This document shows, piece after piece, positions 7,571 through 28,919 of a DNA stretch of 64,000 bases (position 1 is its first letter; each line of letters opens with the position of its first letter). The stretch is from Flavobacteriales bacterium (GTDB taxonomy: Bacteria; Bacteroidota; Bacteroidia; UBA10329). Location of the stretch: assembly GCA_021741155.1 (NCBI GenBank), contig JAIOYP010000015.1, positions 1 to 64,000 on the forward strand. Direction: 5' to 3'. The notes under the pieces are model-generated. The model had not been told where the DNA came from, made no database searches, and saw only the letters and a list, made by a program, of their open reading frames with translations. A program made the translations under genes and the position numbers.

Positions 7571-8538
7571 ACCGTTACGGTCTTTTTGCTCTGCGAAGCA
7601 ACCCAATTGTAGGTTTTGGTAATTCCTTCTCGGAGAGAGTAATTCGGTTTCCATCCTAGTTTTTCCTCAATAAGGCGATTGTCTGAACTACGACCACGAA
7701 CTCCTGTAGGCCCTTCAATGTTGTTGATTCGTACATTTTTTCCGCTTACGTCACAGACCAATTTTACAAAATCATTTATCGCAATCATTTCTTCGGAACC
7801 AATATTCACTGGTCCAGAAAACTCGCCTTTCATAAGTGACCGAACTGCATCAAGACAATCATCGATGTAAAGAAATGACCGTGTCTGCTTTCCATCGCCC
7901 CAAATATCGACTACACCATTCTCAGCAGATTCTGCCACTTTGCGGCAAATGGCCGCAGGCGCCTTCTCCTTTCCATTGTTCCAAGCTCCTTCTGGACCAT
8001 AGATGTTATGAAACCGAGCAACTTTCACGTTGAGTCCTGTGTTTCTAGAAAATGAGAAATAAAGTCTTTCGCTAAATAGTTTTTCCCACCCATACTCGCT
8101 ATCAGGATCGGCAGGATAAACTGAATCCTCTCCGCATTTTGGATTGTTGGGGTCCATCTGATTTCGCTCTGGATAAACACAGGCCGAAGATGAATAAAAC
8201 ACTTTTCCTACTCCTTTCTTTGAACATTCATGCGCCACATGCAGGTTGATAAGCGCGGAATTGTGCATGACCTGAGCGTCATTATCTCCCGTAAAAATGT
8301 AGCCAGCACCGCCCATATCTGCAGCTAACTGATAAACCTCATCCAATCCTAGGTCAATCACCTTCGCAACCACCATGACATCCTGCAAGTCTCCTACAAT
8401 GAATTCATCAGCATGAGTTGGGCTGTATTCAGGATTTTTCAAATCCACTCCTCGCACCCAATATCCCTCCTGCTTCAGCCTTTTCACCAAATGAGAACCA
8501 ATAAATCCCCCCGCACCAAGTACTAATGCTCGTTTCAT
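7567..8538 (-). CDS. GDP-mannose 3,5-epimerase-like NAD-dependent epimerase (extended SDR)
   Basis: The 323-aa protein has the SDR NAD motif GAGGFIG (residues 8-14), an SSSAC block with Cys120, and the Tyr149-x3-Lys153 pair. Several blocks match GDP-mannose 3,5-epimerase as I recall it from plants: LAADMGGAGYI, SSACVYPE, RFHNIYGPEGAW and KEKAPAAICRK. That enzyme inverts C3 and C5 of GDP-mannose to give GDP-L-galactose or GDP-L-gulose. Bacterial relatives supply unusual sugars for surface glycans, which fits this locus. The SDR class is certain. The exact epimerisation is a good but untested assignment. Confidence 0.78.
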   Translation of the reverse strand: MKRALVLGAGGFIGSHLVKRLKQEGYWVRGVDLKNPEYSPTHADEFIVGDLQDVMVVAKVIDLGLDEVYQLAADMGGAGYIFTGDNDAQVMHNSALINLHVAHECSKKGVGKVFYSSSACVYPERNQMDPNNPKCGEDSVYPADPDSEYGWEKLFSERLYFSFSRNTGLNVKVARFHNIYGPEGAWNNGKEKAPAAICRKVAESAENGVVDIWGDGKQTRSFLYIDDCLDAVRSLMKGEFSGPVNIGSEEMIAINDFVKLVCDVSGKNVRINNIEGPTGVRGRSSDNRLIEEKLGWKPNYSLREGITKTYNWVASQSKKTVTV

Positions 8539-8613: not shown

Positions 8614-9750
8614 TCAACTGTCCTTTTTTTCAATCGATTGGTTCATCCGTTCATCATCCAAATGCTTGGCATAGTGCTTTCCCCAGTTTCGTTCCTCAGG
8701 CCATTTCAAAATCCACTTCCTGAAATAGTAAATAGACCAATTGAAGATCAAAGATGCTGTTCTGAAAGGAAATGTGACCCAGCGCCACCAACGTTGCCAA
8801 TCAACATTTTTAGCGATGATTACACTCAGCAACCGTAGATGATTATCAAATGCGATTAGGAGCAACACTAAGATTGGCCAAATATCTACCGAATAAGTAA
8901 AGACCGCGAGTAGACCAAAGAGTACGGGAAAGCTCAAATTGTAAGAATCGTCAATCACTTTAAACAACTCCGACCGTTTAGTTGGAAGCGTGCCATTTTC
9001 TCTCCTGTAAAAATAAAGTCCTACAGGAACGCAAACCGTTGCGACAACCCACCAATTCGCAAACCGCACCATCCACAAAAACAACAGGATGACCTCAAAC
9101 AGGAACAGTCCCCATTGAAATGAATTCAGCGCCTTATCGCTGAATACGAGCGAAATCGTCTTTTGCTGCGATTGCTCATCAAGAAGTCTGTCGGCCTTTT
9201 GACCCGTGATAAAATTTCTTGCTTCCCAAAGAAAAGACCATGTGAGATAGACGAACAACAGGATATACGTGTCCGATGTAACGTGTTCAACCAATATAAC
9301 AGCAATCATTATATAAGGTAGGGTTCGTTCGTAGAAACCTGTGACAACTATGGCCAAAACTCCCTTTTCTTTCATACGAATAGGCCGAACAGAATACATT
9401 AAATTGAGAAGAATTTGAACGCCAGCTAAGGCAAGCAGGAGCGGATTTTCGAGTATTGATATGAGAACCAATGCCAATCCAGTTGCTCCGAACAGAATGA
9501 CCAAGGCAGCGTTTTTACCAACTGTATCGACAAGATTCCTCTTGCCTGCCAATCGGTCACTTTGCAAATCGCATAGGTCGTTGAGAACGTGGCCAAATAC
9601 CGCCAGAGAAATAAATGCTCCGAAAAGGACTGCCAAATTGCACCAATACACGGAAGTAATTGGAACATGGTAATAAACGGTAAACAGTATCGAGGTGAGC
9701 AGCCCGCCACCGATTTTATAAACCCACCATTTATCTGATTTGAAAAACAT
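8614..9750 (-). CDS. UbiA-family prenyltransferase-like membrane protein
   Basis: The 378-aa, very hydrophobic protein has eight or nine membrane segments. It carries the first UbiA aspartate motif NDLCDLQSDRLAGKR (the NDxxDxxxD type) after TM2. The second aspartate motif of the family is not clear: in its place stands ARNFITGQKADRLLDEQ. UbiA enzymes move a polyprenyl chain from its diphosphate onto an aromatic or sugar-phosphate acceptor, as with quinones, haems or decaprenyl-phosphate ribose in arabinan synthesis. The location in a glycan locus suggests lipid-carrier chemistry. Its nearness to the P450/toroid run also allows a terpenoid role. The family is well supported and the substrate open. 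Confidence 0.72.
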   Translation of the reverse strand: MFFKSDKWWVYKIGGGLLTSILFTVYYHVPITSVYWCNLAVLFGAFISLAVFGHVLNDLCDLQSDRLAGKRNLVDTVGKNAALVILFGATGLALVLISILENPLLLALAGVQILLNLMYSVRPIRMKEKGVLAIVVTGFYERTLPYIMIAVILVEHVTSDTYILLFVYLTWSFLWEARNFITGQKADRLLDEQSQQKTISLVFSDKALNSFQWGLFLFEVILLFLWMVRFANWWVVATVCVPVGLYFYRRENGTLPTKRSELFKVIDDSYNLSFPVLFGLLAVFTYSVDIWPILVLLLIAFDNHLRLLSVIIAKNVDWQRWWRWVTFPFRTASLIFNWSIYYFRKWILKWPEERNWGKHYAKHLDDERMNQSIEKKDS

Positions 9751-9874
9751 GTCAACCTGAACTATTCCCTTGGTTAAACTTAAAAATTTAAAGAATCAAA
9801 AGACGATTCTTTTGGCTGGTTTAATACCATTACGAAATAGATATACTTGCATCGTTGTTGTTAATTCCAAAATA

Positions 9875-10801
9875 ATGCGAACGTTCTCGTCATTTCTAAC
9901 CCTGTCCTCTTTTCTGGTGCTGTTCGGTTTCACTCAATGCTCGGATTACAACACTGGTATCAACCAAGAAAACGCATCACACGGAACTTTTAATCATCTA
10001 TTGAAACCCGGAATGACCAAATTTGAAAAGGCCGTTGCTCTTAGGCGAGCCATTGCAGACACCTTGGATGTTGGATTTACTTCGGACAGCCTTTGTTTGA
10101 ACTTTGCGAAAATCTCATTTCAAGATTTCAACATCGATTCATTTATACCAAAATTCGGAAATAATACAGGGGCTGGGAGTTGCGGACTTGCCTCAAGTAT
10201 GCTAGCCAAAACGCTAAATGATGCAGGGATAGAAGCTTACACCTACAATTTCGGGTTTGAAAACACGAAAACAACACATGTACTTGTCATTGCACACACA
10301 GACAACAATCAGTGGACTGTTCATGACCCATCTTTCAACTATTCCATTACTGATTCATCTAACAACCCAAAGGATTTCTTTAAACTACTTGGAGAACTTG
10401 GTCTAAGGAATCATTCTGACATTTCATTTTCCTCGGATACCGTGTTTAGAGAGGTACTCCTTGATGATGCACGTTCAATGTTTGACCTTGTAAGTTTCGG
10501 GTGTCTAAAACATTTAGAATCTCAGCATGCTATAGATAAAAATTCAATTGTAATGCAGATACCAGTATGCTATTCATGTGTTTTCGATTCCACTTACTGT
10601 CCTGAGTTGAATCTTTTCTATAATTTATCTCAGAGAGCAAGTCAGTTCGGACTACCACGTAACAGCCTTTATGGTTTTTTGTTTCAGCTAAATCGTACTT
10701 GGGGACCAAACCCCACTCTGTTGCAAGCCAAGATTGACTCGGTTTTTAAAACATTCAACAACAACGCCCTAGTTGAACGTGGTGAGAATAAACTCAGATG
10801 A
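9875..10801 (+). CDS. Transglutaminase-like lipoprotein, paralogue B
   Basis: I place the start at the ATG at 9875, giving 308 aa. There the protein begins with a lipoprotein signal (lipobox GFTQC, Cys22), while a longer frame from 9770 would put charged sequence in front. It contains the same Cys-His-Asp order as paralogue A: GSCGLAS (Cys103), TTHVLV (His135), VHDPSF (Asp151), with AYTYNFGFEN conserved. TATACTTG at 9842-9849 is one mismatch from the -7 consensus and lies downstream of 9770, which supports the inner start. The two paralogues flank the epimerase and UbiA genes on the opposite strand. Function is unknown. Confidence 0.58.
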   Translation: MRTFSSFLTLSSFLVLFGFTQCSDYNTGINQENASHGTFNHLLKPGMTKFEKAVALRRAIADTLDVGFTSDSLCLNFAKISFQDFNIDSFIPKFGNNTGAGSCGLASSMLAKTLNDAGIEAYTYNFGFENTKTTHVLVIAHTDNNQWTVHDPSFNYSITDSSNNPKDFFKLLGELGLRNHSDISFSSDTVFREVLLDDARSMFDLVSFGCLKHLESQHAIDKNSIVMQIPVCYSCVFDSTYCPELNLFYNLSQRASQFGLPRNSLYGFLFQLNRTWGPNPTLLQAKIDSVFKTFNNNALVERGENKLR

Positions 10802-10850: not shown

Positions 10851-11735
10851 TCAACTGTAATAGGAGTCATACTTTTCCAACTTATCACCAAATCTGACCA
10901 ATGTCGAGTTTAGCCTGAATTCTTCCATTCTTAATTGTGACTCATCTACAACTATCTTACTTCCGAATTTTAGTGTTTGATTCAATTTTCCTTTGAAATT
11001 GTTTAACCATTCCAAATAACCGAGGAGTTTTTTTTTGCGATGCTCCTTGGAAACCAGCCTGATGTACTTTAACGCAAAAAAATTAATGCATCTTACAACC
11101 AAGGCAGAATGTGTGTTCAACGAAGTATGAATCTTTTGGGGAGAAAATTTGAACTGCTGAAACCCAAAAAACTGCTCTATATGTTCCAAATACTGCAATG
11201 GGGCATCTGAAAGAAATTCAAACGGCAGAATCAAGACGTTATCCGCACCAAACAACTTTTTATAAATGCCAATAACATGATTGTAGTCATACATTTCTAA
11301 AATACTATGTTGTATAATTTGCTGAGCTTCCTTGAAAGAACCAGTTTCTCCTGTAAACAAATACTGTGAGTACAATGAGGAAACGAGTGATTGGTATCCT
11401 CTTACTACAATCAGAACTTTGGCCTCTGGAAACAATCGTTTCAATCCCTCGGCTGTTTCTTTCTGTTTCCGTTTAATGTCATAGTTCATGTTGTATCTAC
11501 GGGAATCTAGATTCGAATCATCGCCTGGCCAAATAGACAGCAACTCCTCGCTCAAAAGATCGAAGGCAAACCCATCGTCACACGGAATCAACCTATCATC
11601 AATAAAACCTGTTTTCACGTAGTGCTCAAATCTTTGCCGATTATGATAAATTTCAGGATGGGCACTAAAATACTTTTGCAGAAAGGTGGAACCTGTTTTT
11701 GGAAAGCCTATATGGATAATTCTTTGTGATGCCAT
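10851..11735 (-). CDS. Sulfotransferase family protein
   Basis: The 294-aa protein opens with HIGFPKTGSTFLQKYF, the 5'-phosphosulfate-binding loop of PAPS-dependent sulfotransferases. It later has VLIVVRGYQSLVSSLYSQY, which matches the 3'-phosphate-binding R-x7-S segment. The family moves sulfate from PAPS to a hydroxyl or amine of a sugar, lipid or small molecule in the cytoplasm. It is the last gene of a minus-strand run that begins with the ABC permease at 18406 and includes a P450 and two terpene-cyclase-fold proteins. Its substrate is probably the product of that run or the glycan of the locus. A second, unrelated-length sulfotransferase is at 22237-23469. Confidence 0.8.
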   Translation of the reverse strand: MASQRIIHIGFPKTGSTFLQKYFSAHPEIYHNRQRFEHYVKTGFIDDRLIPCDDGFAFDLLSEELLSIWPGDDSNLDSRRYNMNYDIKRKQKETAEGLKRLFPEAKVLIVVRGYQSLVSSLYSQYLFTGETGSFKEAQQIIQHSILEMYDYNHVIGIYKKLFGADNVLILPFEFLSDAPLQYLEHIEQFFGFQQFKFSPQKIHTSLNTHSALVVRCINFFALKYIRLVSKEHRKKKLLGYLEWLNNFKGKLNQTLKFGSKIVVDESQLRMEEFRLNSTLVRFGDKLEKYDSYYS

Positions 11736-11799
11736 ATCAATTAATTCTGAAGAGCATCCGTTTTACTATGTTTTTCACAATCATCACGCATTACCTAAA

Positions 11800-12867
11800 T
11801 CAACATTCTCCATAGTAGAAATTATACACTCGTTTCCGATACAAATTAAGGAACTCTAGATACAACGAGCATGTGATAGCTGGTGAGCCAAAAAAGGTAT
11901 TAGGAGATTTTCCATCAGGCTGAAGGTCGGTTTTAAGATTACAGCTGTACAGCGCAGCATTACGCATAAATCTCTCTGAGTCTATTTCTGCAAAACACTC
12001 TTGAAAAACTGATTGAAATTTTTCCAACTCAAGCCCAAGATAAAGGACGCTTGATGCAAATAGAATCTTATCCAGAAAAAAGTCTGACGGATTCAATTCA
12101 GAATACATCTTTTCCATGTATTCCGTAACTCCACTCAATTCAAGATTATGGTCGTCTTTTCTCAAGTACACCAACCGTGCAAATGCGTGAACCGAATTCA
12201 TGATACTAGGGTAGTAAGTTTGCTGAAAGCTCTTGTTTTCGAAACTACGGACTGCATTCATCCAAACAGCGGAATCCCAGAATTTACCCCCCAAATACAG
12301 TAAGTTATTACACGATACTACAAAATCAAGATCCGTTTCTCGCAGGAGATTGTTTGCATAGGCTAGGCTTTTCTTCACTTTACGATTATAACGCCAGAGA
12401 TTGAACTGTGCAGCAAGCGAAAGGTTTTTCATGTGAAGAAATGAATCGACAAAAACCAGATAGTGTCCATTAGTTGATAGCTGGTTAAGCAGCTTCTTAT
12501 TGTCGCACTTTACACCATTCTGTTCTAAAACAAAGGAGCAAAGTGCTGTAGAATCGGTATCGTAAAAATGCAGATACCGTTCATTAAGCGTTGGATATGA
12601 CCACAGTTTCTCTTCAAATCCCTGTCCCTGAACATAGCTAATTGTCTTTTTTATAATACTGCGACTTCTACTTGACTCAATATGTAGAAGTGGTATAATA
12701 ATGGAAGCGCTATCAAAGCAAGAGTCACCTAAGGTCATCCAGCCATATGTGGGATTATAAATTGGTTGATAAAACTTTGTAGAAAAGCTACCGTTATCCT
12801 GTTGCTGCTCGCCCAATAGTATCAGTAAACGATCTATGGAATAGTCTATACCCTTTTTGGAAATCAA
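11800..12867 (-). CDS. Terpenoid-cyclase/prenyltransferase-fold (alpha/alpha toroid) protein, paralogue 2
   Basis: The 355-aa protein is paralogous to the upstream gene. It shows features of the toroid fold: a QW-like start (GEQQQDNGSF, about residues 19-27), FDSASIIIPLL, and YDTDSTALCSFVLEQNG. The last contains DxDS (Asp103, Asp105, Ser106), resembling DxDD-T-A of class II cyclases. The C-terminal block KTDLQPDGKSPNTFFG is almost unchanged between the paralogues. Classic class II enzymes are much longer, so this is a single-domain form. An enzyme acting on an isoprenoid or lipid is plausible, but activity is unproven because the last Asp of the motif is Ser. It is separated from its paralogue by 157 bp without any recognised feature. 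Confidence 0.5.
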   Translation of the reverse strand: MISKKGIDYSIDRLLILLGEQQQDNGSFSTKFYQPIYNPTYGWMTLGDSCFDSASIIIPLLHIESSRSRSIIKKTISYVQGQGFEEKLWSYPTLNERYLHFYDTDSTALCSFVLEQNGVKCDNKKLLNQLSTNGHYLVFVDSFLHMKNLSLAAQFNLWRYNRKVKKSLAYANNLLRETDLDFVVSCNNLLYLGGKFWDSAVWMNAVRSFENKSFQQTYYPSIMNSVHAFARLVYLRKDDHNLELSGVTEYMEKMYSELNPSDFFLDKILFASSVLYLGLELEKFQSVFQECFAEIDSERFMRNAALYSCNLKTDLQPDGKSPNTFFGSPAITCSLYLEFLNLYRKRVYNFYYGEC

Positions 12868-13024
12868 TTCAGATTTATCTTATTTTTAATTATTCTATTT
12901 TCGAAAAACCTTACGCCTTTGAACCCAATTAGGTGAAAAATGAATGGCTTAGCAACAGGTCTGCAAGGTAGCCGTTGAAGGATACATGCCTGAGAATATG
13001 TTGAACCACTTTTTCTAAAACAAA

Positions 13025-14104
13025 TCAACCAATACTGGAATAATATCCTCCATGGAATCTGTAACGATACATGTTTAAGAATTCGAGATATAGTGAACAG
13101 GTAATGGCCGGTGAGCCGAAATATGTATTTGGAGATTTCCCATCTGGCTGGTAATCTGTATTAACATTACTCGAATAAATTGCGAAGGTTTGATTGTAGC
13201 ATTCCTCATTTAGGCGAGCTAGAATAACATCGGAGAGATTGTTCAGATAATCTTTTTCGCCATCAAGAAACAACAGTGCGTTGGCAAGTAGTATTTGCCT
13301 ATCGCTTTGGCTAATATTATTTAAGTTAACCTTAAGTTGGCTGATGTACTCTTCGATCAACCGTTCATCCTGAACAATCTCATTATTTCCTGTGAAATAG
13401 GCTAAGCGGGTCACATGATAAAAACTGTGATAAAAATCCAGATAATACATGTGATCAACAGATTGGCTAGCAAATGTTTTCTTCAGTTTTTCCCACACCA
13501 CACTATTGGCATCCGTCTTTCCCAAATATAACAGGTTTAAACACGAGCTAGAAAACTCTGAATCTGTAACGCGCATATCATCATTTACTATTGGAATGCA
13601 TCTCTTAACTCTCCAATTTCTAACAACCATTTTACAATAAGTAATAAACGGTATGTTAAATCGATACTGGTCAGGCCAAATGTAGAAGGGATAATACTGG
13701 TCTTTCCCGATAAGTGAATCTAGAAAAACCTTGTTCTCCACTTTATGCCCACTTTCTGTAAGCACCAAAGAAGCTAATGAAGTACTATCCGTATCGTAAG
13801 GTATCCAATAATCATCGTTCACAAAGGCATAAGTCCACAGCAGACTATCTAAACTTTGCTGTAGCAAGAATTCGTTTGCCTTGCCAATGATGCTTTTCGC
13901 ATTCGGAGAATCGATTTTCAACAGCGGAAGTACTGTTGTTGCTGTATCGTAAGGTGCATTCCCAGGGAATTTCATCCACTCTTTATCAGGATTATAATGC
14001 GGTTGCATGTAGTAGGTATTGAAGCTGCCGTCTGCGTTCTGAATACTTTCCAGAAACGCTATCAATTTCCGAACATGAAGGTCTATTTCCTCAAGACTTA
14101 TCAT
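13025..14104 (-). CDS. Terpenoid-cyclase/prenyltransferase-fold (alpha/alpha toroid) protein, paralogue 1
   Basis: I chose the ATG at 14104 (359 aa) because it gives MIS, matching the start of the paralogue. An ATG 12 bp further up is possible. It shows NADGSF (QW-like), PYDTATTVLPLL and YDTDSTSLASLVLTESG (Asp104, Asp106, Ser107), the variant DxDS of the class II cyclase DxDD motif. The C-terminal block has DYQPDGKSPNTYFG and SPAITCSLYLEFLN, shared with paralogue 2. It overlaps the P450 gene by 14 bp, so the two are translationally coupled, and the pair probably acts in one pathway. No signal peptide is visible. A non-catalytic chaperone-like role for one copy is also possible. Confidence 0.5.
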   Translation of the reverse strand: MISLEEIDLHVRKLIAFLESIQNADGSFNTYYMQPHYNPDKEWMKFPGNAPYDTATTVLPLLKIDSPNAKSIIGKANEFLLQQSLDSLLWTYAFVNDDYWIPYDTDSTSLASLVLTESGHKVENKVFLDSLIGKDQYYPFYIWPDQYRFNIPFITYCKMVVRNWRVKRCIPIVNDDMRVTDSEFSSSCLNLLYLGKTDANSVVWEKLKKTFASQSVDHMYYLDFYHSFYHVTRLAYFTGNNEIVQDERLIEEYISQLKVNLNNISQSDRQILLANALLFLDGEKDYLNNLSDVILARLNEECYNQTFAIYSSNVNTDYQPDGKSPNTYFGSPAITCSLYLEFLNMYRYRFHGGYYSSIG

Positions 14105-15323
14105 GAAGGAGGACATTTAACTGGAGAATTTTGAGCATTGAATTCTCAAACTCAAATTGAGGTTCTGAATCGAGAATCTTGAAAAACCTATTCTCCTTTC
14201 TGATATTCTGAATCACATTCAATCCCATTCTAAAGCTTGCAGATTCTCCAATACATGCAAGATGTCCTCTACCAAAAGAAAGGTGTTTTTCTGACCTTCC
14301 GAGCCTGAACTCAGCTGGCTTTTCAAACACGGATGGATCCATGTTGGCTGCGCCTAAATACACCACCACCATATCACCAGTCTTCAAATGTTTCCCGTAT
14401 TTCTCAGCATCATTTGTTACCGTTCTGAAGATGAATGGTACGGGCGTGTGAATGCGCAAAACTTCGTTGGAAATTTGCTGTAACTTATCTAAAGGTAAAT
14501 CTGACGAACTCAATACTTCTGGAAATCTGGAATAAACTTCATAGACCAATGAGGTAACATAACTTCCCGTACTCTCAACGGTTGCAAAAATCATTGATTT
14601 TACGAATTTTACCACTTCCTTCTGATCAAACTCATGGTCTACTTTTAATTCAGAAATAAGATTATTGACCCTGATAGGAAGCTTGCCTCCACCCTCCAAA
14701 TAATTCTCCAACATGTATGTGAGATTATCCATATCAGCATAAAAGCCAATAATTCGCTGAACGGTGGTGTCAAATGAAAAATCAGGGGATTCAGGATTAA
14801 ACTCAGGAAATGATTCAAAGAGACCGAATTCATCCATTGAATTCAAAAAAAGCAACGGCTTAACAATAATGTCAACCAAATTAAACGGCTGGTCTTTTGG
14901 GGTATGATTGAGGAAAATATCAAACATTTTGGTTACCCGTACATTTTCTGAACTCTGGAACTCTTTGGAAAGAAAAGTTAGGTGTTTCAACGCTATTTTC
15001 TTATTGTGCATATGAAGAGCTTCATCCCTAGAAAAATAAAGACTATTCAAATTCAAATGAACGGTTGACACACCAAACACGTCTTTATCATTGAGAATCT
15101 CTTTGACCACATGATACTTAAATGCACAGTGGACATTAAATTCCTGAAAAAACACTAGGTCCTCTTCACCTAGGTGGCTAGATTTATTGTGATAACCGGA
15201 TATGAGAAATTCAGTCAGTCTATCACTTTCAGAAGTTTGGGCTATGTGTGAACAAGTAGCCGTTACTGATGGCTTACTTTTATCAAAAGCAGCCCACACT
15301 AGTTGTTTAAACTTGCTAATCAT
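14091..15323 (-). CDS. Cytochrome P450
   Basis: The 410-aa soluble-type protein has the P450 haem-ligand motif FGRGHLACIG with Cys357. The K-helix ExxR is Glu287 to Arg290 (EVLRIHTPVPFIFRTV), and a probable I-helix lies at about 243-257 (FATVEST). It has the normal bacterial length and no membrane anchor. P450s hydroxylate or otherwise oxidise lipids, terpenes or peptides using a ferredoxin and reductase; no redox partner gene is nearby. It is coupled to the toroid gene downstream and follows the unknown 289-aa gene by 60 bp. P450s are uncommon in glycan loci, so this points to a small-molecule or lipid-tailoring step in this run. Confidence 0.92.
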   Translation of the reverse strand: MISKFKQLVWAAFDKSKPSVTATCSHIAQTSESDRLTEFLISGYHNKSSHLGEEDLVFFQEFNVHCAFKYHVVKEILNDKDVFGVSTVHLNLNSLYFSRDEALHMHNKKIALKHLTFLSKEFQSSENVRVTKMFDIFLNHTPKDQPFNLVDIIVKPLLFLNSMDEFGLFESFPEFNPESPDFSFDTTVQRIIGFYADMDNLTYMLENYLEGGGKLPIRVNNLISELKVDHEFDQKEVVKFVKSMIFATVESTGSYVTSLVYEVYSRFPEVLSSSDLPLDKLQQISNEVLRIHTPVPFIFRTVTNDAEKYGKHLKTGDMVVVYLGAANMDPSVFEKPAEFRLGRSEKHLSFGRGHLACIGESASFRMGLNVIQNIRKENRFFKILDSEPQFEFENSMLKILQLNVLLHDKS

Positions 15324-15383
15324 GTTCTATGAATTGGTATTAACACAGTGCAATAAATCTTTTCCAAAACCAATACTATTTGG

Positions 15384-16253
15384 CTATGCCAAAACCTTAC
15401 TCATGGTGTCAACATAAAAAATGTTGCCTATATCTAACCTAGATTGTACCGGATTCAGATTCAGCTGTTTATCAAAAAAATACACGGACTTGATGTCTTG
15501 TCTCTCGTAAAATCCGTAAACAGCATTGATTAGTCCATACTTATCATTCAGCTTTTGAATAAGTTCATTTTCGTTTTTTCCAAAGCGGTTTACTTCAGTC
15601 GCCAAATCAAACAAGTCATTGCCATACATGGTGTTGATTTTACAAAAGCTATCTGATTCTGCAAATTCAATTAAATGAGCTTTGTTTAAAAACGGTAATT
15701 CAAAACGGTCTGCAAAGTATTTATTCGTTTCTGGCTCATCGAAGTAATAATACTTTTTCAATAGAACTTCTTCGTTGGAATATTCGAAATTAATGGCAGG
15801 ATTCAGTTTTATCTCCATCCAATCGGGGAGGCTTTTAGGCCGGCCAAGTGCCTTGAAGGTCTCCTCACATGCTTTCAATCTCAAATAAAAACCAATTACT
15901 TCATCCTGACCATCTTTGAATTTAACTTCAAAAGCACAACCTGTGTAATTCGGATTGCAAAAATCACTTTGCGCGTGATATGGATAATACTCTAGAATAT
16001 GGTCAGAAAAAGGTAAGAACTTCTCTAACTCTTCCTTATCCAACTGTGAAAACCAATGGAAATAAACCTTTATGCTTACTACACTATCTTCTTTGAAATT
16101 CAATCCGAAATAAGTGAAGTATGGTAGTCCTTTTTGCTGCTTATGGAGCAAATTATACGTTTCGAACATTTCAACAACCGAGCTTGAACGCAAACATTGC
16201 ATGATTTGATCAAACCCTTTTTCAACACCATCTGCTAACTTAATTGGTTTCAT
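15384..16253 (-). CDS. Unrecognised 289-aa protein, possible prenyltransferase-barrel relative
   Basis: I do not recognise this protein. It has no signal peptide or membrane segment and is rich in aromatic residues and short beta strands. Segments such as YFTYFGLNFK, VVSIKVYFHW and EVIGFYLRLK alternate with helices. Strand pairs ending in KVYF and a length near 300 aa are reminiscent of aromatic (ABBA, PT-barrel) prenyltransferases, but no decisive motif is seen. It sits 37 bp after the ABC ATPase gene and 60 bp before the P450 gene on the same strand, so it is very likely part of the same transcription unit. The fold suggestion is weak inference from pattern and context. Confidence 0.4.
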   Translation of the reverse strand: MKPIKLADGVEKGFDQIMQCLRSSSVVEMFETYNLLHKQQKGLPYFTYFGLNFKEDSVVSIKVYFHWFSQLDKEELEKFLPFSDHILEYYPYHAQSDFCNPNYTGCAFEVKFKDGQDEVIGFYLRLKACEETFKALGRPKSLPDWMEIKLNPAINFEYSNEEVLLKKYYYFDEPETNKYFADRFELPFLNKAHLIEFAESDSFCKINTMYGNDLFDLATEVNRFGKNENELIQKLNDKYGLINAVYGFYERQDIKSVYFFDKQLNLNPVQSRLDIGNIFYVDTMSKVLA

Positions 16254-16290
16254 AGTAATCGTAATCTCTTCAAATTCTTCACTAGTTCTC

Positions 16291-17571
16291 TCATATTTTC
16301 TCCTTAACCCATGTGAAGGCGGGAGATAAGTTACAGTTGATATTTAACTTGGATAAATCCAAAAAAACCGATTCAGCGTGAAATACTGGTTTAAAATACA
16401 ATACATTTCTGAACACGTGACAAACGTCTACTCCTCCAGTTTTCAAGAAGTCTTGGTACTTGAATGGATTTTCCTCATTATATGATGACAGAACGTCTTT
16501 CGTGTTTTTTAGAAACGTAATACTCATGCCAAATACGCGAGAATTAAAAATGCTTGCGGGTATGATGCACTTGAGTTTATAGGTGCCCGAATCCATCTCT
16601 AACGATGGTGCACCCGAAATTAATGGTGTAGTGAAGAACACAATATTTTCCTGAAGATCATTCACCGAAACAATGCAATCTAAGGAACAATCGTTCTCCA
16701 GTTTGTCATACATAATTTCGAGTACAAACTCTTTATCTGTCCTGAATTGCGCACTAATATTGTTAGACTGATAGAGTTTTACCTCAAGCAAATCCAACTC
16801 TACTGATTGGCGGGTAGGATTGAAGTGTGTCAATGTAGTATCCGTTGTTATCACATCCAAGCCGTCATCTGCACTAATTACGGAAGCTGTGAGATAATCA
16901 ATAAGCACTTTCCGATTCTCATCATAAGACTGTAGAGCTCCTTCTTTGAGATGGAGAAATGTATCCTGTTTATCCAAAGCACTCATCTGGTGGCTAACCA
17001 GAACAACCGTTTTGTCAGATTCAATCAAGGCTCGTAAGGTCTTACTCACCTTTGCTTCAAACTTGGCATCTCCAACAGCAAAAACCTCGTCAAACAGATA
17101 AACATCGAAATCTAAATGCGCTAGGATGCTGAATGCCAACCTAAGGAACATGCCGCTCGAATAGTTCTTGACTGGCTCATTAATGAAGTCACCGATTCCA
17201 CTAAATTCTATAATCTCCTGCTCCACTTTAGATGTCTCAAGTTTTGAGAACCCTAGTACGTTGCTGTTTAAATAGATATTCTCCCGTCCGCTCAATTCTG
17301 GGTGAAAACCAGCACCAATATCCAAAATGGAGGCTACCCGTCCTCTGATGGCAACAGTTCCATGAGTTGGCTTGGTTACACCGGCAAGCACTTTGAGCAA
17401 GGTGCTTTTTCCACTTCCGTTATGACCGAATATCCCAACGGAATCTCCGCGCTTTACAGAGAAGGAAACATCGCGCAGCGCCCACAGTTCATGTGTTCCT
17501 AATTCGGATGCTCCAACTCTCGTGTAGCACTTTGAAAGCCCTTTGATTTCTATAGCGTTCTCTTTCTCCAT
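16291..17571 (-). CDS. ABC transporter ATP-binding protein, Wzt-like polysaccharide exporter subunit
   Basis: I take the ATG at 17571 (MEKENAIEIKG, 426 aa). An upstream ATG adds 25 residues that overlap the permease gene and lack family character. Walker A is GHNGSGKST (residues 49-57), the signature is YSSGMFLRLAFS, and Walker B is VYLFDEVFAVGD. After the nucleotide-binding domain (about 1-245) comes a C-terminal extension of about 175 aa rich in beta strands, as in Wzt proteins that recognise the end of an O-antigen chain. It pairs with the permease gene 1 bp upstream. The extension suggests substrate recognition and proofreading of the exported glycan. Confidence 0.87.
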   Translation of the reverse strand: MEKENAIEIKGLSKCYTRVGASELGTHELWALRDVSFSVKRGDSVGIFGHNGSGKSTLLKVLAGVTKPTHGTVAIRGRVASILDIGAGFHPELSGRENIYLNSNVLGFSKLETSKVEQEIIEFSGIGDFINEPVKNYSSGMFLRLAFSILAHLDFDVYLFDEVFAVGDAKFEAKVSKTLRALIESDKTVVLVSHQMSALDKQDTFLHLKEGALQSYDENRKVLIDYLTASVISADDGLDVITTDTTLTHFNPTRQSVELDLLEVKLYQSNNISAQFRTDKEFVLEIMYDKLENDCSLDCIVSVNDLQENIVFFTTPLISGAPSLEMDSGTYKLKCIIPASIFNSRVFGMSITFLKNTKDVLSSYNEENPFKYQDFLKTGGVDVCHVFRNVLYFKPVFHAESVFLDLSKLNINCNLSPAFTWVKEKI

Positions 17572-17572
17572 T

Positions 17573-18406
17573 TCAAGTATGATCGCTAAATTCTCCCTCC
17601 TTTCGATGGAAATAAAACATTCCTCCACCGCAAAGGAGCAAGACAATGAAGAAAGATATTATCCAAGTTGCTTGAAAAGTACCGAATCCAAAAAGTATCC
17701 ATCTCCAAAAATCGACCACTGATGCCATTGGATTTAGAACTAAGAAATCGGACACTTCTGGCGGAAGCATTTTGGTTATGAAGAATACTGGAGTAAGCCA
17801 TATTCCGAAATAGACCACAAATGGCAAAAGATGAAAAAGATCGCGCTTCTTGTAGCCAAGAGCTGCTACCCAAAATACTGGAGCCAAGCCACAAAGTGCG
17901 TTGAACACAATAATTAGAGGAAGAAATAGCATCCGCCACGAAAACCCATAACCGAAATAGATCATTAATGGAATCAGAATTGCAAAACTGAGTAGGAGTT
18001 CGATTAGTGCTACCACCGTTTTGGACAGCGGCAATATACTTTTAGGGAAATAGATTTTTCGAATGATGGAAGAAGACTCTTGAATACTGCTTGTGCCTGT
18101 GTAAATTATGTAAGAGAAAAAATTCCATCCCAAGAGACCGCTAAGCACGTACAGCGCATAAGGCACCTCACCAGCTGTCCATTTTAGAACATAACCAAAA
18201 AGAAAAGTGAAGATGAGTAATGCCGTTAGTGGCTGTATTAGACTCCAACTTACGCCCAATATGGTTTGTGAATACTTGACCTTAAGATCGCGTACTGCAA
18301 ACACCCAAATCAGACCACGGTGGTGGTAAATTTTCTTCAGATACTCAGAAACTGAGTCGGGTTCGCTGGTGAAAAAGGTTACTTGTTCGCTGGTTGGGGA
18401 CGACAT
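17573..18406 (-). CDS. ABC-2 type permease, Wzm-like polysaccharide exporter subunit
   Basis: The 277-aa protein begins with a cytoplasmic part containing IYHHRGLIWVFAVRDLKVKYSQTILG, typical of ABC-2 polysaccharide permeases. Six hydrophobic segments follow, for example PLTALLIFTFLFGYVL and FLPLIIVFNALCGLAPVFWV. Two copies together with two ATPase subunits would move lipid-linked polysaccharide across the inner membrane. It is the first gene of the seven-gene minus-strand run. The plus-strand gene at 18500 starts 93 bp away, so this gap holds divergent promoters. The family assignment is firm; the substrate is inferred from the locus. Confidence 0.88.
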   Translation of the reverse strand: MSSPTSEQVTFFTSEPDSVSEYLKKIYHHRGLIWVFAVRDLKVKYSQTILGVSWSLIQPLTALLIFTFLFGYVLKWTAGEVPYALYVLSGLLGWNFFSYIIYTGTSSIQESSSIIRKIYFPKSILPLSKTVVALIELLLSFAILIPLMIYFGYGFSWRMLFLPLIIVFNALCGLAPVFWVAALGYKKRDLFHLLPFVVYFGIWLTPVFFITKMLPPEVSDFLVLNPMASVVDFWRWILFGFGTFQATWIISFFIVLLLCGGGMFYFHRKEGEFSDHT

Positions 18407-18499
18407 GATATCAATGAACGCGAATGTACAAACTCAGTGACCAAGTTTTTACCTAGGAACTCAATCACATTTCCCAAATTTGAAGATTGTAAGAATCTC

Positions 18500-19348
18500 A
18501 TGCGGAGTATAGCTCACATCATTAATATTTTCCAACCTGCAGACACTTCAGATTTGAAGTTGGCTCAGGAAGTAACGATTGTATCGATGTTACGTGCGAA
18601 GGAAAACTCGGTTAGTCCTGCAAGCATTTCACTGCTTTCTGCTCAGACAAACAGAGACCGGATTATGGTTCCCGAAGGCTTCACTGCTACCACTGACCTT
18701 GTAAGAGATGTGACCGACCTCCAAGTGTTTGACAAGAAAATGCATTTGCCAATTCTGAAGGATATTCTTGATCGGGCTTACAACGAATCAAAAGCTGAAT
18801 ACTTGATATTTAGCAATGTTGATATTGGAATTCAACCCAATTTCTATGATGAGGTGAACCGATTTATTGAGCAAGGACATGATGCGTTTATGATTAATCG
18901 CAGACGGATTCCAGAAAAATTCAATTCAGTTGAACAGTTGGAAGAAATGCTTGTCGAAAAAGGCAAGAAGCATCCTGGGTTCGATTGCTTTGTTTTTAAA
19001 CGAGAATTGTACTCAAAATTCTCATTGGCGAATGTTTGCATCGGAGTTCCTTTCATCGAGATTACGCTATCTCAGAATCTATTCTGTTTTGCCAAAAACC
19101 CAAAAGTATTTACGGAGGAACACCTCACATTTCACATAGGAATGGAAATTTATAAAGGGCGCGCTCCAAAGGAATATTACAAATACAATCAGATTCAATT
19201 TTGGCAAGCCATGACTGAAATTTGGCCAAGTTTGAATACACGCAAATGGCCTAAAGGCAACTGGTGGTTTCCGTTCAGGATAATCTATTGGGGATTGCAC
19301 CCTTGCTTCCCAATCAAGCTTGCGTTCAAATTGGAATCAAAACGTTGA
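18500..19348 (+). CDS. Glycosyltransferase-like protein (GT-A-like), third family member
   Basis: I take the ATG at 18500 (MRSIAHIINIF, 282 aa); an open frame reaches back to 18383 but would overlap the permease gene. The protein has EVTIVSMLRA, then KAEYLIFSNVDIGI, a strand ending in a DxD-like NVD, and a C-terminal basic/aromatic segment. The overall arrangement is similar to the two tandem proteins at 3051-5079. It lies alone on the plus strand between the exporter permease and the acetyltransferase gene, with a 1-bp gap to the convergent GNAT gene. A sugar-transfer function is inferred from fold and location only. Confidence 0.5.
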   Translation: MRSIAHIINIFQPADTSDLKLAQEVTIVSMLRAKENSVSPASISLLSAQTNRDRIMVPEGFTATTDLVRDVTDLQVFDKKMHLPILKDILDRAYNESKAEYLIFSNVDIGIQPNFYDEVNRFIEQGHDAFMINRRRIPEKFNSVEQLEEMLVEKGKKHPGFDCFVFKRELYSKFSLANVCIGVPFIEITLSQNLFCFAKNPKVFTEEHLTFHIGMEIYKGRAPKEYYKYNQIQFWQAMTEIWPSLNTRKWPKGNWWFPFRIIYWGLHPCFPIKLAFKLESKR

Positions 19349-19349
19349 A

Positions 19350-19982
19350 TCAGAAATTGATGGCAAAGGGCTTGAGATAATCCGTTGCTTCAGAATTCAG
19401 ATTAGTAAATCTCTTGGTCCAAACCGAATCTGGCCGAACACCAATTCCAGTTTTATTTCCGAACATTCTTGCTGCATTTAATCGCAGACCTTTTGTGGCT
19501 GCTTCAAACTTTTCAAAAGTGACTGAATAATATTGAAATCCATCGGGCTGATTTGGTTCCAACTCATATCCAAGGTCTTTATTGAATCGAATAGCCTTGT
19601 GATTTTCATGATGAATTTTGGCACGAAGCCAGGTCAATCCGACTATATAAAACGCAATTTCCATCATCATCAAAATAGCAAGCATAGGTTGGGCCGTGTC
19701 CAAAAAACTGGGTTCTCCAACAAATACGCCTGCTTCACCCGAATCGCCTTCCATATTTTTTATATGCACAAGTCCGATTGGATAATGATTACTACGGATA
19801 ACCCAATAAAGATTTGATTGGGAGTCAAGCCCACGAAACCATTGCAACTGATTCTCGCTGGAAAGTACTTTCTGGAACTGCATTCGCGAACGGATGTAAT
19901 CCTGATTACGCCAAAGCCGAATCATTTCAAGATGCTCCTCTCGCATGGCTTCAAGCACAAGACCATAGCGCTGAATTTTCAC
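19350..19982 (-). CDS. GNAT-family N-acetyltransferase
   Basis: The 210-aa protein has a GNAT layout: the MREEHLEMIRLWRNQDYIRSRM start typical of sugar or ribosomal-protein acetyltransferases, central strands (YWVIRSNHYPIGLVHI), and a C-terminal block HHENHKAIRFNKDLGYE where the Asn and the Gly-Tyr ending mark motif B. About 40 extra residues follow the domain. It is the last gene of an operon with KAS III, ACP and a glycosyltransferase and overlaps the glycosyltransferase gene by 4 bp. Transfer of an acyl group to an amino sugar is the likely role, possibly using acyl-ACP or acyl-CoA. The acyl donor is not known. Confidence 0.75.
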   Translation of the reverse strand: MKIQRYGLVLEAMREEHLEMIRLWRNQDYIRSRMQFQKVLSSENQLQWFRGLDSQSNLYWVIRSNHYPIGLVHIKNMEGDSGEAGVFVGEPSFLDTAQPMLAILMMMEIAFYIVGLTWLRAKIHHENHKAIRFNKDLGYELEPNQPDGFQYYSVTFEKFEAATKGLRLNAARMFGNKTGIGVRPDSVWTKRFTNLNSEATDYLKPFAINF

Positions 19983-20902
19983 TGAACGATGGTTTTGATG
20001 GCATAAACTGGTCTTTTAATTCTGTCAGCATAAATGCGGCTGATGTAGGTGCCAAGAATGCTCAGACAAATCATAATGATTCCTGTGGTGAAGAATATTG
20101 CCGTGATAATAGATGCAAACCCAGGTTCGGTACCAATCATGATTCGTTCATAGAGAAAAAAAATGCCGATACCAAAGCAGACCATTGCGATAAGAATTCC
20201 CGAAATGCTCATCATTCTCAGTGGAAAATCGGTGTAGAATACAATTAGCCGAATGGCCATGCCAACGAGGTTCAAGAATGAATAGCCAGATTTACCTTCG
20301 GCTCTTGACTCATGATCAACAACCACTTTTCCTATTTTCTCTGTGTACCAATGTACCACTTGATTGAGGAAGAGTTGGTCGTGTGCTTGTTTGGCCAATT
20401 GTTCCTTCAATTGCGGGCTGATATACCTGAAAGATGAGCCAATCTCAGCACCATCTGCCCAATGGAAAACGCGCTTCATCAGGTTTGAACCAACTCGTTT
20501 GAAGAACGGGTTATTCTGAGCCGATGTGATACCGAAAACAATATCTGAATCGGTTTCTTTCTGATGCTTCAGCAACTTTGATATTTCGGCAGGTGGCGTC
20601 TGCAAATCATCATCAATGGTAATAACCGCTGCGCCTTTGGCGTTGGCTATTCCACAGACTGTAGCTGCATTCTGACCATAATTTCTTGCTAAACGAATAA
20701 GTCGAACTGAATCTGAATAAAGGTTTTTCAATCGCTGAAGTTCCTTCCAGCTTTCCTCGGACCCACCATCCTCAACAAATAGAACTTCAAATGATAAACC
20801 TTCATTTGACAAGCAGTTCTTGACTCCATTGAACAACGGCTCTAGCGTTTCAACCGAATTGTAAACGGGAACAACAACTGTTATGTCTAGGGTTTGGCTC
20901 AA
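19979..20902 (-). CDS. Family 2 glycosyltransferase (DPM1/GtrB/ArnC type)
   Basis: The 307-aa protein has the GT2 start TVVVPVYNSVETLEPLF and the NYGQNAATVCGI and TIDDDLQTPP blocks, with the DDD metal site. QVVHWYTEKIGKV follows, and two C-terminal transmembrane helices lie at about 233-257 and 266-290. This is the layout of enzymes that attach a sugar to undecaprenyl phosphate at the inner membrane, as in glycan modification or aminoarabinose transfer. It overlaps KAS III and GNAT genes by 4 bp on each side, so the sugar it loads is probably also acylated or acetylated by these partners. The family is certain; the sugar is unknown. Confidence 0.9.
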   Translation of the reverse strand: MSQTLDITVVVPVYNSVETLEPLFNGVKNCLSNEGLSFEVLFVEDGGSEESWKELQRLKNLYSDSVRLIRLARNYGQNAATVCGIANAKGAAVITIDDDLQTPPAEISKLLKHQKETDSDIVFGITSAQNNPFFKRVGSNLMKRVFHWADGAEIGSSFRYISPQLKEQLAKQAHDQLFLNQVVHWYTEKIGKVVVDHESRAEGKSGYSFLNLVGMAIRLIVFYTDFPLRMMSISGILIAMVCFGIGIFFLYERIMIGTEPGFASIITAIFFTTGIIMICLSILGTYISRIYADRIKRPVYAIKTIVQ

Positions 20903-21957
20903 TAGTAAATCAGCTTTGGGCAGATTATATTTTCGGTTGTTAAAATTACATTACCCCACGACAAACCAACACCAAAACCGCTAAGCAGCATCGTTTTGCG
21001 ACTATTCATCAACTCTTCTCGCAACTGAGTTGCCAACGTAATCGGAATTGTCGCACAACTCGTATTACCGAAATCATATAGTGAACTTGGAGCTTTTGAC
21101 TTATCAAATCCAACCTTTCGCATGATAGAATCATTGAGTAATTGATTGGCTTGATGGAGGACTATGTAATCAATCTCCGCCTCAGTAATCTGCTCCGATT
21201 TCAAAAGTTCCTTGATTTCCGAAGCAACGGTAGAAAGTCCAAACGTAAACACAGCCTGTCCGTTCATATTGAGTTGATTGGCCTGACGCGAAACGCCTTC
21301 AGAGATCGACTTCATTTTCAACGAATCCTCGTTCAGCGAATTCCGAAAGCCCCCAGCTTCTGTGTAAATAGCCTGAAAGGATGAACCATTCGAGCCCAAT
21401 CTAAAAACCATTCTTTCCTTTGAATCAGCATCAAATTCCAAAGCTGTTGCTGTTCCGGCATCCGCGAAAATTGGACGAAGACTGTTGTCTTCTTTTGAAA
21501 TTATTTTGGTGATGGTATCTCCAACAAGCAAAAGACCACGTTTGATACCGAACGAGCGCATCATTCCACTCATCACCGAAAGTCCGTAAACGTATCCGGC
21601 ACAGCCTTGATTGATATCTAAACAAACACAATTTGTAGGAAGACCAAGTCTGTCCTGCAATTGGGTTGCCGAACCGGGAACCAAATGATCGGGAGTTTGG
21701 CTTACAAAAACCATCAGACCGATTTCAGTAGGCGCCCAATTCAATTCCTCTAAGAGCTTTTGGGCTGAAGAAAAACAAAGATCGGCAGCGGTAGTTGTCT
21801 CCTCCGCCACATGACGGTATCTAATTCCTACCTGATTGAGAATTTCATTTCTGGAACGTTCAGAAATAGAATCCAAGGTGCTGTTATCCTCTCGATTTGA
21901 GGGAACTGCCGCTGAAATCCCTTTTATTGAAATACCCGAAATAGAAAGCTCAGGCAT
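20899..21957 (-). CDS. 3-oxoacyl-ACP synthase III (KAS III)-like protein
   Basis: The 352-aa protein carries the complete KAS III triad: Cys119 in INQGCAGYVYG, His268 in VLHQAN and Asn298 in DFGNTS. Such enzymes condense an acyl-CoA with malonyl-ACP or act as acyl transferases. It overlaps the dedicated ACP gene by 8 bp, which suggests a private acyl chain separate from housekeeping fatty acid synthesis. It lies in an operon with a sulfotransferase, a lipid-sugar transferase and a GNAT enzyme. Its product may be a short or hydroxylated acyl group for a surface sugar. The family is firm; chain type and partner are inference. Confidence 0.9.
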   Translation of the reverse strand: MPELSISGISIKGISAAVPSNREDNSTLDSISERSRNEILNQVGIRYRHVAEETTTAADLCFSSAQKLLEELNWAPTEIGLMVFVSQTPDHLVPGSATQLQDRLGLPTNCVCLDINQGCAGYVYGLSVMSGMMRSFGIKRGLLLVGDTITKIISKEDNSLRPIFADAGTATALEFDADSKERMVFRLGSNGSSFQAIYTEAGGFRNSLNEDSLKMKSISEGVSRQANQLNMNGQAVFTFGLSTVASEIKELLKSEQITEAEIDYIVLHQANQLLNDSIMRKVGFDKSKAPSSLYDFGNTSCATIPITLATQLREELMNSRKTMLLSGFGVGLSWGNVILTTENIICPKLIYY

Positions 21958-22189: not shown

Positions 22190-22236
22190 CTCTTTTTAGA
22201 TTCCTCCTTTACGAATGTAATAATCTGAATAGAGAT

Positions 22237-28876: not shown

Positions 28877-28919
28877 GCCGATATTTTCTTGAATTAAAAT
28901 CAAATAAGCACTTATCCTA

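Follow-up and report, generated by a model that had tools for sequence, protein, structure and literature searches.

What would a cytochrome P450 and two toroid-fold proteins be doing in a gene cluster that otherwise looks built to export a surface sugar? The question is raised by positions 10851-18406 of the window, by which we mean the whole 64,000-nucleotide stretch of Flavobacteriales DNA analysed here. The answer developed below is that the cluster probably contains a swappable gene set for making a ring-shaped terpene and for oxidising and sulfating it, lying inside an apparent surface-sugar export cluster.

Gene content of the locus

A preliminary description of this DNA had seen seven closely spaced minus-strand genes, and ORF inspection finds the same seven, all on the minus strand. 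By coordinate, these are a PAPS-type sulfotransferase (10851-11735; PF13469, 44.7 bits against a cut-off of 27), toroid 2 (11800-12867, with a TTG start), toroid 1 (13025-14116), a cytochrome P450 (14091-15323; PF00067, 59.8 bits against 22.8), a 289-aa protein with no family label (15384-16253), a Wzt ATPase (16291-17646; PF00005, 66.9 bits) whose C-terminal domain spans about 177 aa, and Wzm, the ABC-2 permease of a polysaccharide-type exporter (17573-18406; PF01061, 38 bits against 26.9). The widest gap, between toroid 2 and toroid 1, is 157 bp. The 14-bp overlap reported between the P450 and toroid 1 holds with the in-frame ATG at 14104, a start that agrees with that of the toroid paralogue, and becomes 26 bp with the first ATG. 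The TTG start of Wzt is probably too early; with an ATG near 17571 instead, most of the overlap between the two exporter genes disappears.

The UbiA-family prenyltransferase said to lie next door is found at 8614-9750 on the minus strand (PF01040, 53.3 bits against 34.2), and the P450, UbiA, sulfotransferase and ABC pair all pass their Pfam cut-offs. Adjoining UbiA, on the same strand, is an NAD-dependent sugar epimerase (7567-8538; PF01370, 145.6 bits). The plus strand carries a transglutaminase-like lipoprotein at 9770-10801, whose C-H-D motif and lipobox were read by eye, and its paralogue at 6653-7570 (30% identity over 267 aa); neither has a Pfam match at E<=1. GC content is 0.37-0.38 over 10-16 kb, as against 0.40-0.43 in the adjoining 2-kb blocks.

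The toroid proteins as terpene cyclase beta domains

Judged from its sequence, each toroid protein is the beta domain of a class II terpene cyclase standing alone (TCbeta), toroid 1 being copy 1 and toroid 2 copy 2. They are 363 and 355 aa long, are 36-37% identical to each other, and contain no alpha, gamma or HAD partner and no other Pfam domain. Neither has a Pfam match at E<=1, and toroid 2 as a single sequence finds nothing in the PDB at that limit. A 13-member family profile (A7) reaches the structures of AsDMS, the HAD-TCbeta drimenol synthase of Aquimarina spongiae (PMC12365925, PMC9128629), at E 2.1e-11 (9mhs) and 6.8e-10 (9m7d) in the PDB. The position altered in 9m7d (D333N) corresponds to an Asp that is invariant in the TCbeta family. 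In Foldseek, the best 17 matches of a TCbeta model of modest confidence (mean pLDDT 55, pTM 0.63) are all class II cyclases, with a query-normalised TM of 0.40-0.51; glycosidase, complement-like and other non-terpenoid alpha/alpha folds rank below these and were rejected as candidates. The earlier assignment to the terpene-cyclase fold is thus upheld by the family profile, Foldseek and the conserved catalytic residues, and the concern that the toroids might belong to unrelated, non-enzymatic families is answered by a family that is enzymatic.

In AsDMS numbering, D333 and Y427 have equivalents in all 13 aligned sequences, and D331 in nine of them, the window copies included. (For AsDMS, hmmalign dropped the first segment, and residues before 425 were read from MAFFT, with D333 also taken from the profile match; R380 is unreadable in the alignment.) Both window copies carry the motif DTDST, with D110 and Y225 in copy 1 and D105 and Y219 in copy 2. 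This is neither a full DxDD nor a DxDTT, and we found no tested enzyme with Ser at the fourth motif position; among relatives the motif reads DxDDT, DxDNT, DTDAT, ETDTN or CTDDT. Proton-initiated cyclisation is a predicted activity of the window copies, which keep the catalytic acid and its Tyr partner. Copy 1 also has the C-terminal motif NTYFGS of AsDMS, with which the family has the profile, predicted fold and D331/D333/Y427 in common. The window copies differ from AsDMS in having DTDST in place of DxDTT, in lacking the HAD domain, and in their neighbours, which are UbiA, a P450, a sulfotransferase and Wzm/Wzt.

Two known pathways can be set aside on domain content. The suggestion of a sterol-like product finds no support, since the window copies are single beta domains without the Pfam squalene-hopene family, and a sterol or hopanoid pathway would call for an enzyme of some 600 aa with both a beta and a gamma domain. 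SQHop has no match on copy 1 at E<=1, and three of the 13 family members match PF13243 weakly (best 8.2e-6). A HAD-TCbeta drimenol synthase is likewise rejected, because Pfam finds a HAD domain in neither ORF.

Partners of the cyclase and their recurrence

A search for the same gene order elsewhere, proposed in the preliminary description, finds P450, UbiA and exporter genes clustering with TCbeta in other genomes. Across 16 TCbeta loci, an A5-type UbiA lies within 6 kb at 12, Wzm and Wzt are both present at 10, and a P450 overlaps, adjoins or is fused to the cyclase at six and sits one gene off at a seventh. The 16 include both of the near-identical loci L033 and L034 from one genus, of which only L033 was used to build A7 and in the tree and Wzt tests; L074 (G190) was left out, its TCbeta match of 3e-8 missing the limit of 1e-10, and weak profile matches in G099, G051, G092 and G079 were dropped. 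The locus recurs in the genus-mate G399 with one toroid and two P450s, as against two and one in the window, a recurrence that puts the gene set beyond chance. In G108, which belongs to another class, TCbeta lies in a cluster with a P450, a UbiA and a protein related to the window sulfotransferase, and in G138 and G166 UbiA lies 0 and 249 bp from TCbeta, Wzm/Wzt not being found in the stretches covered.

Homologues scattered without the others had been named as what would count against the gene set. Most occur with partners, the exceptions being L073, which has TCbeta without UbiA, P450 or Wzm (1.8 kb to the contig start, 9 kb covered on the other side), L074, where neither UbiA nor a P450 nor an exporter gene is labelled, and in part G398. 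This last is a genus-mate with TCbeta and Wzm/Wzt but no P450 match genome-wide, and its best UbiA is on contig C38 and its TCbeta on contig C93. In another genus-mate, G395, the exporter and one flank are retained, with PhyH oxygenases in the place of TCbeta and P450; this genome is only 70% complete. PhyH, glycosyltransferase, acyltransferase and sulfotransferase labels were first given by eye and later confirmed.

The window P450 carries the heme motif FGRGHLACIG and ExxR (read by eye) and has PDB relatives down to E 7.6e-18. In five of the 14 genomes searched (G411, G600, G682, G518 and G108), the sole PF00067 match of the genome is at the toroid locus. P450 and TCbeta are fused in L036 and L038, where the P450 halves score 99 and 104 bits (Pfam), and the P450 label needs three changes on a 15-row TCbeta tree that omits L034, L039 and L074. 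The sulfotransferase is a less regular partner. The window type occurs at only three of the 16 loci; relatives adjoin the cyclase in G399 (63% identity) and G108 (32.5% over 203 aa), and the L072 protein, at 24.6 bits, falls slightly short of the 27 bits that Pfam requires. A sulfotransferase of a different family, PF06990, adjoins TCbeta in L014 and L031, so that five of 16 loci have one family or the other. The L014 and L031 proteins match the galactose 3-O-sulfotransferase family, and the sulfate may therefore sit on a sugar rather than on the terpenoid.

UbiA itself contains NDxxDxxxD and DxxxD, and these Asp motifs are invariant in 10 aligned sequences. The two Asp-rich motifs are shared with UbiA-superfamily prenyltransferases such as digeranylgeranylglyceryl phosphate (DGGGP) synthase and chlorophyll synthase; EboC/Ubi-297 of marine Flavobacteria (PMC9235831) is a further member of that superfamily. 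The window UbiA differs from these in belonging to a divergent clade, with members of about 320-390 aa, that occurs in Wzt and TCbeta loci; two genus-mates have it as a fusion with a group 1 glycosyltransferase. The same clade is present in Wzt loci of four genus-mates without detected TCbeta (G396, G400, G401 and G402), the two fusions being among these, which rules out a strict one-to-one dependence and marks UbiA as a core gene of this locus type. Its description as a cluster partner stands to the extent that it clusters with TCbeta elsewhere, but it is not specific to the cyclase, and it may serve the glycan instead. The epimerase is a core gene beside UbiA, with relatives 67-80% identical that adjoin UbiA or lie within about 4 kb of it in L088, L092, L094 and L096. 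The lipoprotein at 9770-10801 is a recurrent neighbour of the locus, being 57% identical to two pieces at facing contig ends of G399, and that at 6653-7570 has relatives in L094 and L096.

The exporter resembles Wzm/Wzt O-antigen systems in pairing an ABC-2 permease with an ATPase that bears a C-terminal domain, within a glycosyltransferase/epimerase locus, and differs in being accompanied by the TCbeta/P450 cassette. Its scores place the pair in the galactan Wzt/Wzm superfamily and outside the NCBIfam galactan equivalog, whose cut-offs it misses (164.2 against 400 bits for Wzt, 34 against 380 bits for Wzm). The Wzt C-terminal domains of the six P450-type loci are nearest one another. With 10 Wzt, a difference this large is reached by the observed grouping alone (1/210), and by 2/210 after regression on ATPase-domain and Wzm identity; with three extra Wzt from loci without a detected cyclase the figure is 1/1716, also after ATPase-domain regression. 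In these sequence comparisons the C-terminal domain follows cassette type; the test leans on relatedness, and the same trend is present in the ATPase domain (5/1716).

The 289-aa protein has relatives in G399, G660, G409, G411 and G682. It has no Pfam match, its PDB sequence and profile searches were empty or at chance level, its best PHROGs value of 0.38 is also chance level, and its single-sequence AlphaFold model has a pLDDT of 36. There is a weak hint of an ABBA-type prenyltransferase fold, in that hhalign aligns 35 columns with an NphB-clade profile at a score of 23.5 (E 0.024, probability 2%), which none of 100 column shuffles reached (18.3 at most). Against a single NphB, the score of 13.95 is inside the shuffle range, and unrelated single ORFs score up to 20.4 (n=142). 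L036 was first assigned to this family by eye, and a profile built without L035 and L036 picks out both from 394 ORFs (2.8e-9 and 4.2e-8).

A candidate pathway and its alternatives

We lean towards a reading in which an export locus of the Wzm/Wzt type, for a surface glycan or glycolipid, carries an inserted cassette for terpenoid tailoring, and we infer substrate, product and cargo as follows. UbiA would attach a linear prenyl chain to a head group that is polar or aromatic. The TCbeta enzymes would then start cyclisation by protonating the terminal double bond, with one or more rings as the result; the two copies would act perhaps in sequence or on two products. The P450 would oxidise the ring system and the sulfotransferase would add sulfate. 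Wzm/Wzt would export the finished (mero)terpenoid, whether free, glycosylated or attached to a glycan, and the C-terminal domain of Wzt would be suited to that cargo. Of the sulfated terpenoid, sterol-like or lipid-glycan molecule first proposed for export, a sulfated exported terpenoid survives as the simplest reading, without the sterol-like part.

The prenylated head, in place of a free diphosphate, is proposed by analogy with MstE. In the part of the MstE report drawn on here (PMC9401909), this merosterolic acid synthase is a monodomain class II cyclase acting on geranylgeranyl-dihydroxybenzoate, is termed the first monodomain class II terpene cyclase, and shares with the window copies the single beta domain; glycan export is not mentioned in that part. 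MstE is absent from the profile matches and from the best 50 of 307 Foldseek matches.

The best-surviving alternative is a variant in the order of steps, and its odds overlap those of the tailoring cassette: TCbeta would act on free prenyl diphosphates, as AsDMS/SsDMS do, and UbiA would then accept and transfer the cyclised diphosphate. We consider this somewhat unlikely. The nearest solved relatives do use FPP (PMC12365925), and Y426, essential to phosphate recognition in AsDMS (PMC12365925), is Tyr in both window copies. On the other hand, the diphosphate-binding arginines R378, R425 and R513 of AsDMS are missing from both copies (R378 and R513 are kept in none of the 13 sequences, R425 in two others, and 12 of the 13 have a gap at R378), such that the substrate head may differ from FPP, and no HAD phosphatase domain is found by Pfam. 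Since the R425A and R513A mutants of AsDMS show raised activity (PMC12365925), the arginine argument rests mainly on R378.

An ordinary O-antigen or surface-glycan cluster, with a phosphoribosyltransferase-like UbiA, a sulfotransferase acting on the glycan, and TCbeta/P450 as an independent terpenoid cluster in its variable part, is an unlikely explanation. A UbiA-family polyprenyl-phosphate phosphoribosyltransferase-like enzyme is described in the O-antigen cluster of Citrobacter youngae O1, in the portion of PMC11127046 cited here. The presence of the UbiA clade in genus-mates without detected TCbeta, its glycosyltransferase fusions, and the galactose sulfotransferase family of the L014 and L031 proteins all fit such a cluster. 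In PDB searches, however, the UbiA profile matches DGGGP synthase (3.8e-7) and chlorophyll synthase (2.6e-5) better than it does DPPRS (8j8j, 1.2e-3), and the 10 UbiA members match 14 NCBIfam families (E<=0.01) of which not one is named for phosphoribosyl transfer, in a library that may hold no such model. The UbiA-TCbeta adjacency in G138 and G166 and the tracking of the cassette by the Wzt C-terminal domain also argue against it.

It is doubtful, to a slightly greater degree, that the export product is a surface glycan or glycolipid with a cyclised, oxidised and perhaps sulfated terpenoid as its end or anchor. UbiA would here make the prenyl head, TCbeta, P450 and sulfotransferase would modify it, the Wzt C-terminal domain would have co-evolved towards recognition of a cargo bearing the terpenoid, and genus-mates would swap cassettes such that their lipid-like decorations differ. 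That the toroids are catalytically dead, or have been recruited to bind a prenylated intermediate and deliver it to the P450 or to the exporter, is the least probable reading, for although it would accommodate the departure of DTDST from DxDD and DxDTT, the Cys or Glu at the first motif position in L013, L014, L031 and L033, and the TCbeta-P450 fusions of two genomes, D333 and Y427 persist in 13 of 13 sequences that are otherwise 18-38% identical to a window copy, and four distant members have DxDDT and one DxDNT.

In the literature searched, we did not find a TCbeta cassette combined with glycan export. The locus points to a Bacteroidota family of stand-alone TCbeta, its window copies missed by Pfam, that is tied to UbiA, P450 and a polysaccharide-type exporter. 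Should the product prove to be bound to a glycan, terpenoid chemistry would be linked to glycan export, and the locus would offer a direct test of recognition by the Wzt C-terminal domain. The TCbeta family profile provides a genome-mining handle for clusters that standard domain models overlook.

Two stand-alone class II terpene cyclases

The preliminary description placed seven minus-strand genes at 10851-18406, and this run is borne out, with all of them on a single strand and gaps of at most 157 bp. Pfam upheld the sulfotransferase, the P450, the ABC ATPase (Wzt), the ABC-2 permease (Wzm) and the neighbouring UbiA (8614-9750), and at E ≤ 1 gave no match for either toroid protein (copy 1, 13025-14116; copy 2, 11800-12867) or for the 289-aa protein. 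The window's assembly comprises 69 contigs and 3.76 Mb at 94.7% completeness. Elsewhere in the window, collagen-like Gly-X-Y repeat proteins are encoded at 29416-32421 and 27005-28903, and a 54-bp unit is repeated 28.3 times (92% matches) at 30391-31920.

The toroid copies share 36-37% identity, and a single-sequence search of 395 phylum genomes matched the window's own genome only. With profiles, 14 of 395 class genomes and, in the phylum set, 10 of 385 yielded relatives, the window's genome counted in each, with 5 of these 10 at E no better than 1e-8. Against the whole PDB, the profile of a 13-member alignment matched AsDMS, the HAD-TCbeta drimenol synthase of Aquimarina spongiae, at 2.1e-11 and 6.8e-10, and squalene-hopene cyclase far more weakly (0.41). 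In the PDB entry 9m7d the catalytic D333 of AsDMS is mutated to N (PMC12365925), and this N aligned with the Asp that is invariant across the family. In a Foldseek search with an AlphaFold model built from three sequences (pLDDT 55, pTM 0.63), the first 17 matches were all class II terpene cyclases, 6 of them at E ≤ 0.001. The earlier reading of the toroids as terpene-cyclase-fold proteins was right by both the AsDMS match and these 17, and from sequence and predicted fold we assign them as two stand-alone class II terpene cyclase beta domains (TCbeta), encoded in a cassette that is exchangeable within a Wzm/Wzt locus.

In AsDMS, catalysis is ascribed to D331, D333 and Y427 and diphosphate binding to Y373, R378, R380, R425, Y426 and R513 (PMC12365925). 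Equivalents of D333 and Y427 are present in all 13 TCbeta members, and those of D331 and of Y426 each in 9, including both window copies. R378 and R513 have no equivalent in any of the 13 (12 of them have a gap in the R378 column), and 2 members, neither from the window, have one for R425. Because AsDMS tolerates R425A and R513A (PMC12365925), this arginine loss suggests, without proving, a substrate other than free diphosphate. The C-terminal blocks of the window copies, read by eye, are near-identical yet carry many synonymous differences, so their likeness reflects constraint rather than recent conversion.

Neighbours of the cyclases

We counted neighbours at the 16 loci above the TCbeta limit. 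UbiA of the window's type lies within 6 kb of TCbeta at 12, and at the other four (L013, L014, L039, L073) the TCbeta gene is invariably less than 2 kb from a contig end. In G399, the genus-mate carrying L013, a UbiA 45% identical to the window's lies on a different contig, roughly 700 bp from its end, and a lipoprotein gene runs off both facing ends, the window's lipoprotein (9770-10801) being 57% identical to both pieces; the gene order is therefore probably complete and the same as the window's, save for one cyclase and two P450s.

P450 genes overlap or adjoin TCbeta in the window, L013, L032 and L035, lie one gene away in L072, and are fused to it in two plus-strand ORFs of 716 aa (L036 8586-10736) and 717 aa (L038 8237-10390), each combining a P450 with a terpene cyclase beta domain. 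The locus P450 is the genome's only P450 match in 5 of the 14 genomes searched (G411, G600, G682, G518, G108); the window's genome has two P450 matches, one at the locus, and G399 four, two at the locus. Among the matches listed in the open-access literature, no paper describes a glycan-export locus with TCbeta or a P450-TCbeta, a weak absence given that preprints and most subscription journals lie outside it; the matches listed for terpene cyclases with O-antigen were two genome surveys.

Wzm and Wzt occur together at 10 of the 16 loci, and a window-type sulfotransferase at 3; a galactose-3-O-sulfotransferase-family gene adjoins TCbeta at L014 and L031. The L072 cluster, from another class of the phylum, combines TCbeta, a sulfotransferase (32.5% identical to the window's over 203 aa, 8e-31; Pfam 24.6 bits, slightly under the cut-off), glycosyltransferase-like genes, UbiA and, close to TCbeta, a plus-strand 748-aa acyltransferase (PF00698)-P450 fusion (11093-13339); no Wzm/Wzt was found in it. 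Radical SAM-like genes adjoin TCbeta at the P450-less loci L014 (1-3070) and L031 (5324-8844), possibly as an alternative tailoring partner; the PF04055 test covered L014 2102-3070 alone.

The 289-aa family is present at 4 of the 16 loci (window, L013, L035, L036) and in two further places, both adjoining genes that read as sulfotransferases. Its conserved K-x-Y and GxN motifs are ones we take to resemble those of ABBA prenyltransferases. Against NphB alone, hhalign scored 13.95, inside the shuffle range, and unrelated single ORFs reached 20.4 (n = 142). An eight-member NphB-clade profile scored 23.5 over 35 columns, which exceeds the best of 100 column shuffles (18.3) and also the scores of three unrelated families and of the profile when reversed, but the probability was just 2%.

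A candidate pathway and its exporter

If these genes act together, UbiA would attach a prenyl chain, TCbeta would cyclise it via protonation, the P450 would oxidise and the sulfotransferase sulfate it, and the exporter would carry the product. The pathway genes are identified and co-conserved, with active-site residues retained; we infer the step order, substrate, product, sulfation site and cargo. In the main competing account, it is the glycan that UbiA and the sulfotransferase serve, and TCbeta and the P450 together form a separate small pathway. Action of TCbeta on the UbiA product fits the asymmetry between them: TCbeta is mostly accompanied by UbiA, and UbiA also occurs without TCbeta.

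Wzt C-terminal domains recognise cargo in some O-antigen systems. Among 10 Wzt, identity in this domain averaged 25.3% within the six P450-type loci versus 16.1% for other pairs, a result unmatched among the 210 possible groupings of six; once ATPase-domain and Wzm identity are regressed out, 2 of 210 groupings reach the observed value. The pattern was noticed before its test, with P450 labels assigned earlier. Adding three Wzt whose loci had shown no cyclase gave 1/1716, the same before and after ATPase-domain regression. Part of this signal is relatedness, because the ATPase domain (5/210, 5/1716) and Wzm (15/210) trend likewise, more weakly.

Probable locus core and exchangeable cassettes

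GC is 0.37-0.38 across the cassette versus 0.40-0.43 in the adjoining blocks. The search for gene order recovered nine genomes, every one from a single genus. In the genus-mate G395 (70% complete, no TCbeta detected), one flank, with genes 55-83% identical to the window's, and a Wzm/Wzt pair adjoin a series of genes for PhyH oxygenases; the contig does not reach the opposite flank. TCbeta was not found in the genus-mates G396 and G400 (98% and 95% complete), where UbiA-clade prenyltransferases are fused to group 1 glycosyltransferases near counterparts of the window's epimerase, lipoprotein and Wzt genes. These genus-mate fusions (767 aa, L094 7843-10146, minus strand, its UbiA half recognised by family profile and not by Pfam at E ≤ 0.001; 761 aa, L096 7014-9299, plus strand) suggest that prenylation is coupled with glycosylation in this locus type.

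A pair of transglutaminase-like lipoproteins (6653-7570 and 9770-10801, on the opposite, plus strand) shows a C-H-D motif by eye and no Pfam match; relatives recur in such loci whether or not a cyclase was detected there. The flank at 18383-23469, encoding a glycosyltransferase-like protein, a GNAT, a GT2, a FabH-like ketosynthase and a second sulfotransferase, is kept in genus-mates carrying different cassettes.

In a 15-row tree of TCbeta, the genus-mate G398 has a copy that joins L031 and L033 of other families (100/99) and not the window copies, which points to horizontal transfer. P450 association requires three changes on this tree, and 21 of 500 label shuffles are equally low. Given the PhyH run in G395 and the set without TCbeta in G396 and G400, this locus type seems to have UbiA, the epimerase, the lipoproteins and Wzt as its core, and TCbeta, P450 and sulfotransferase as one among several exchangeable cassettes.
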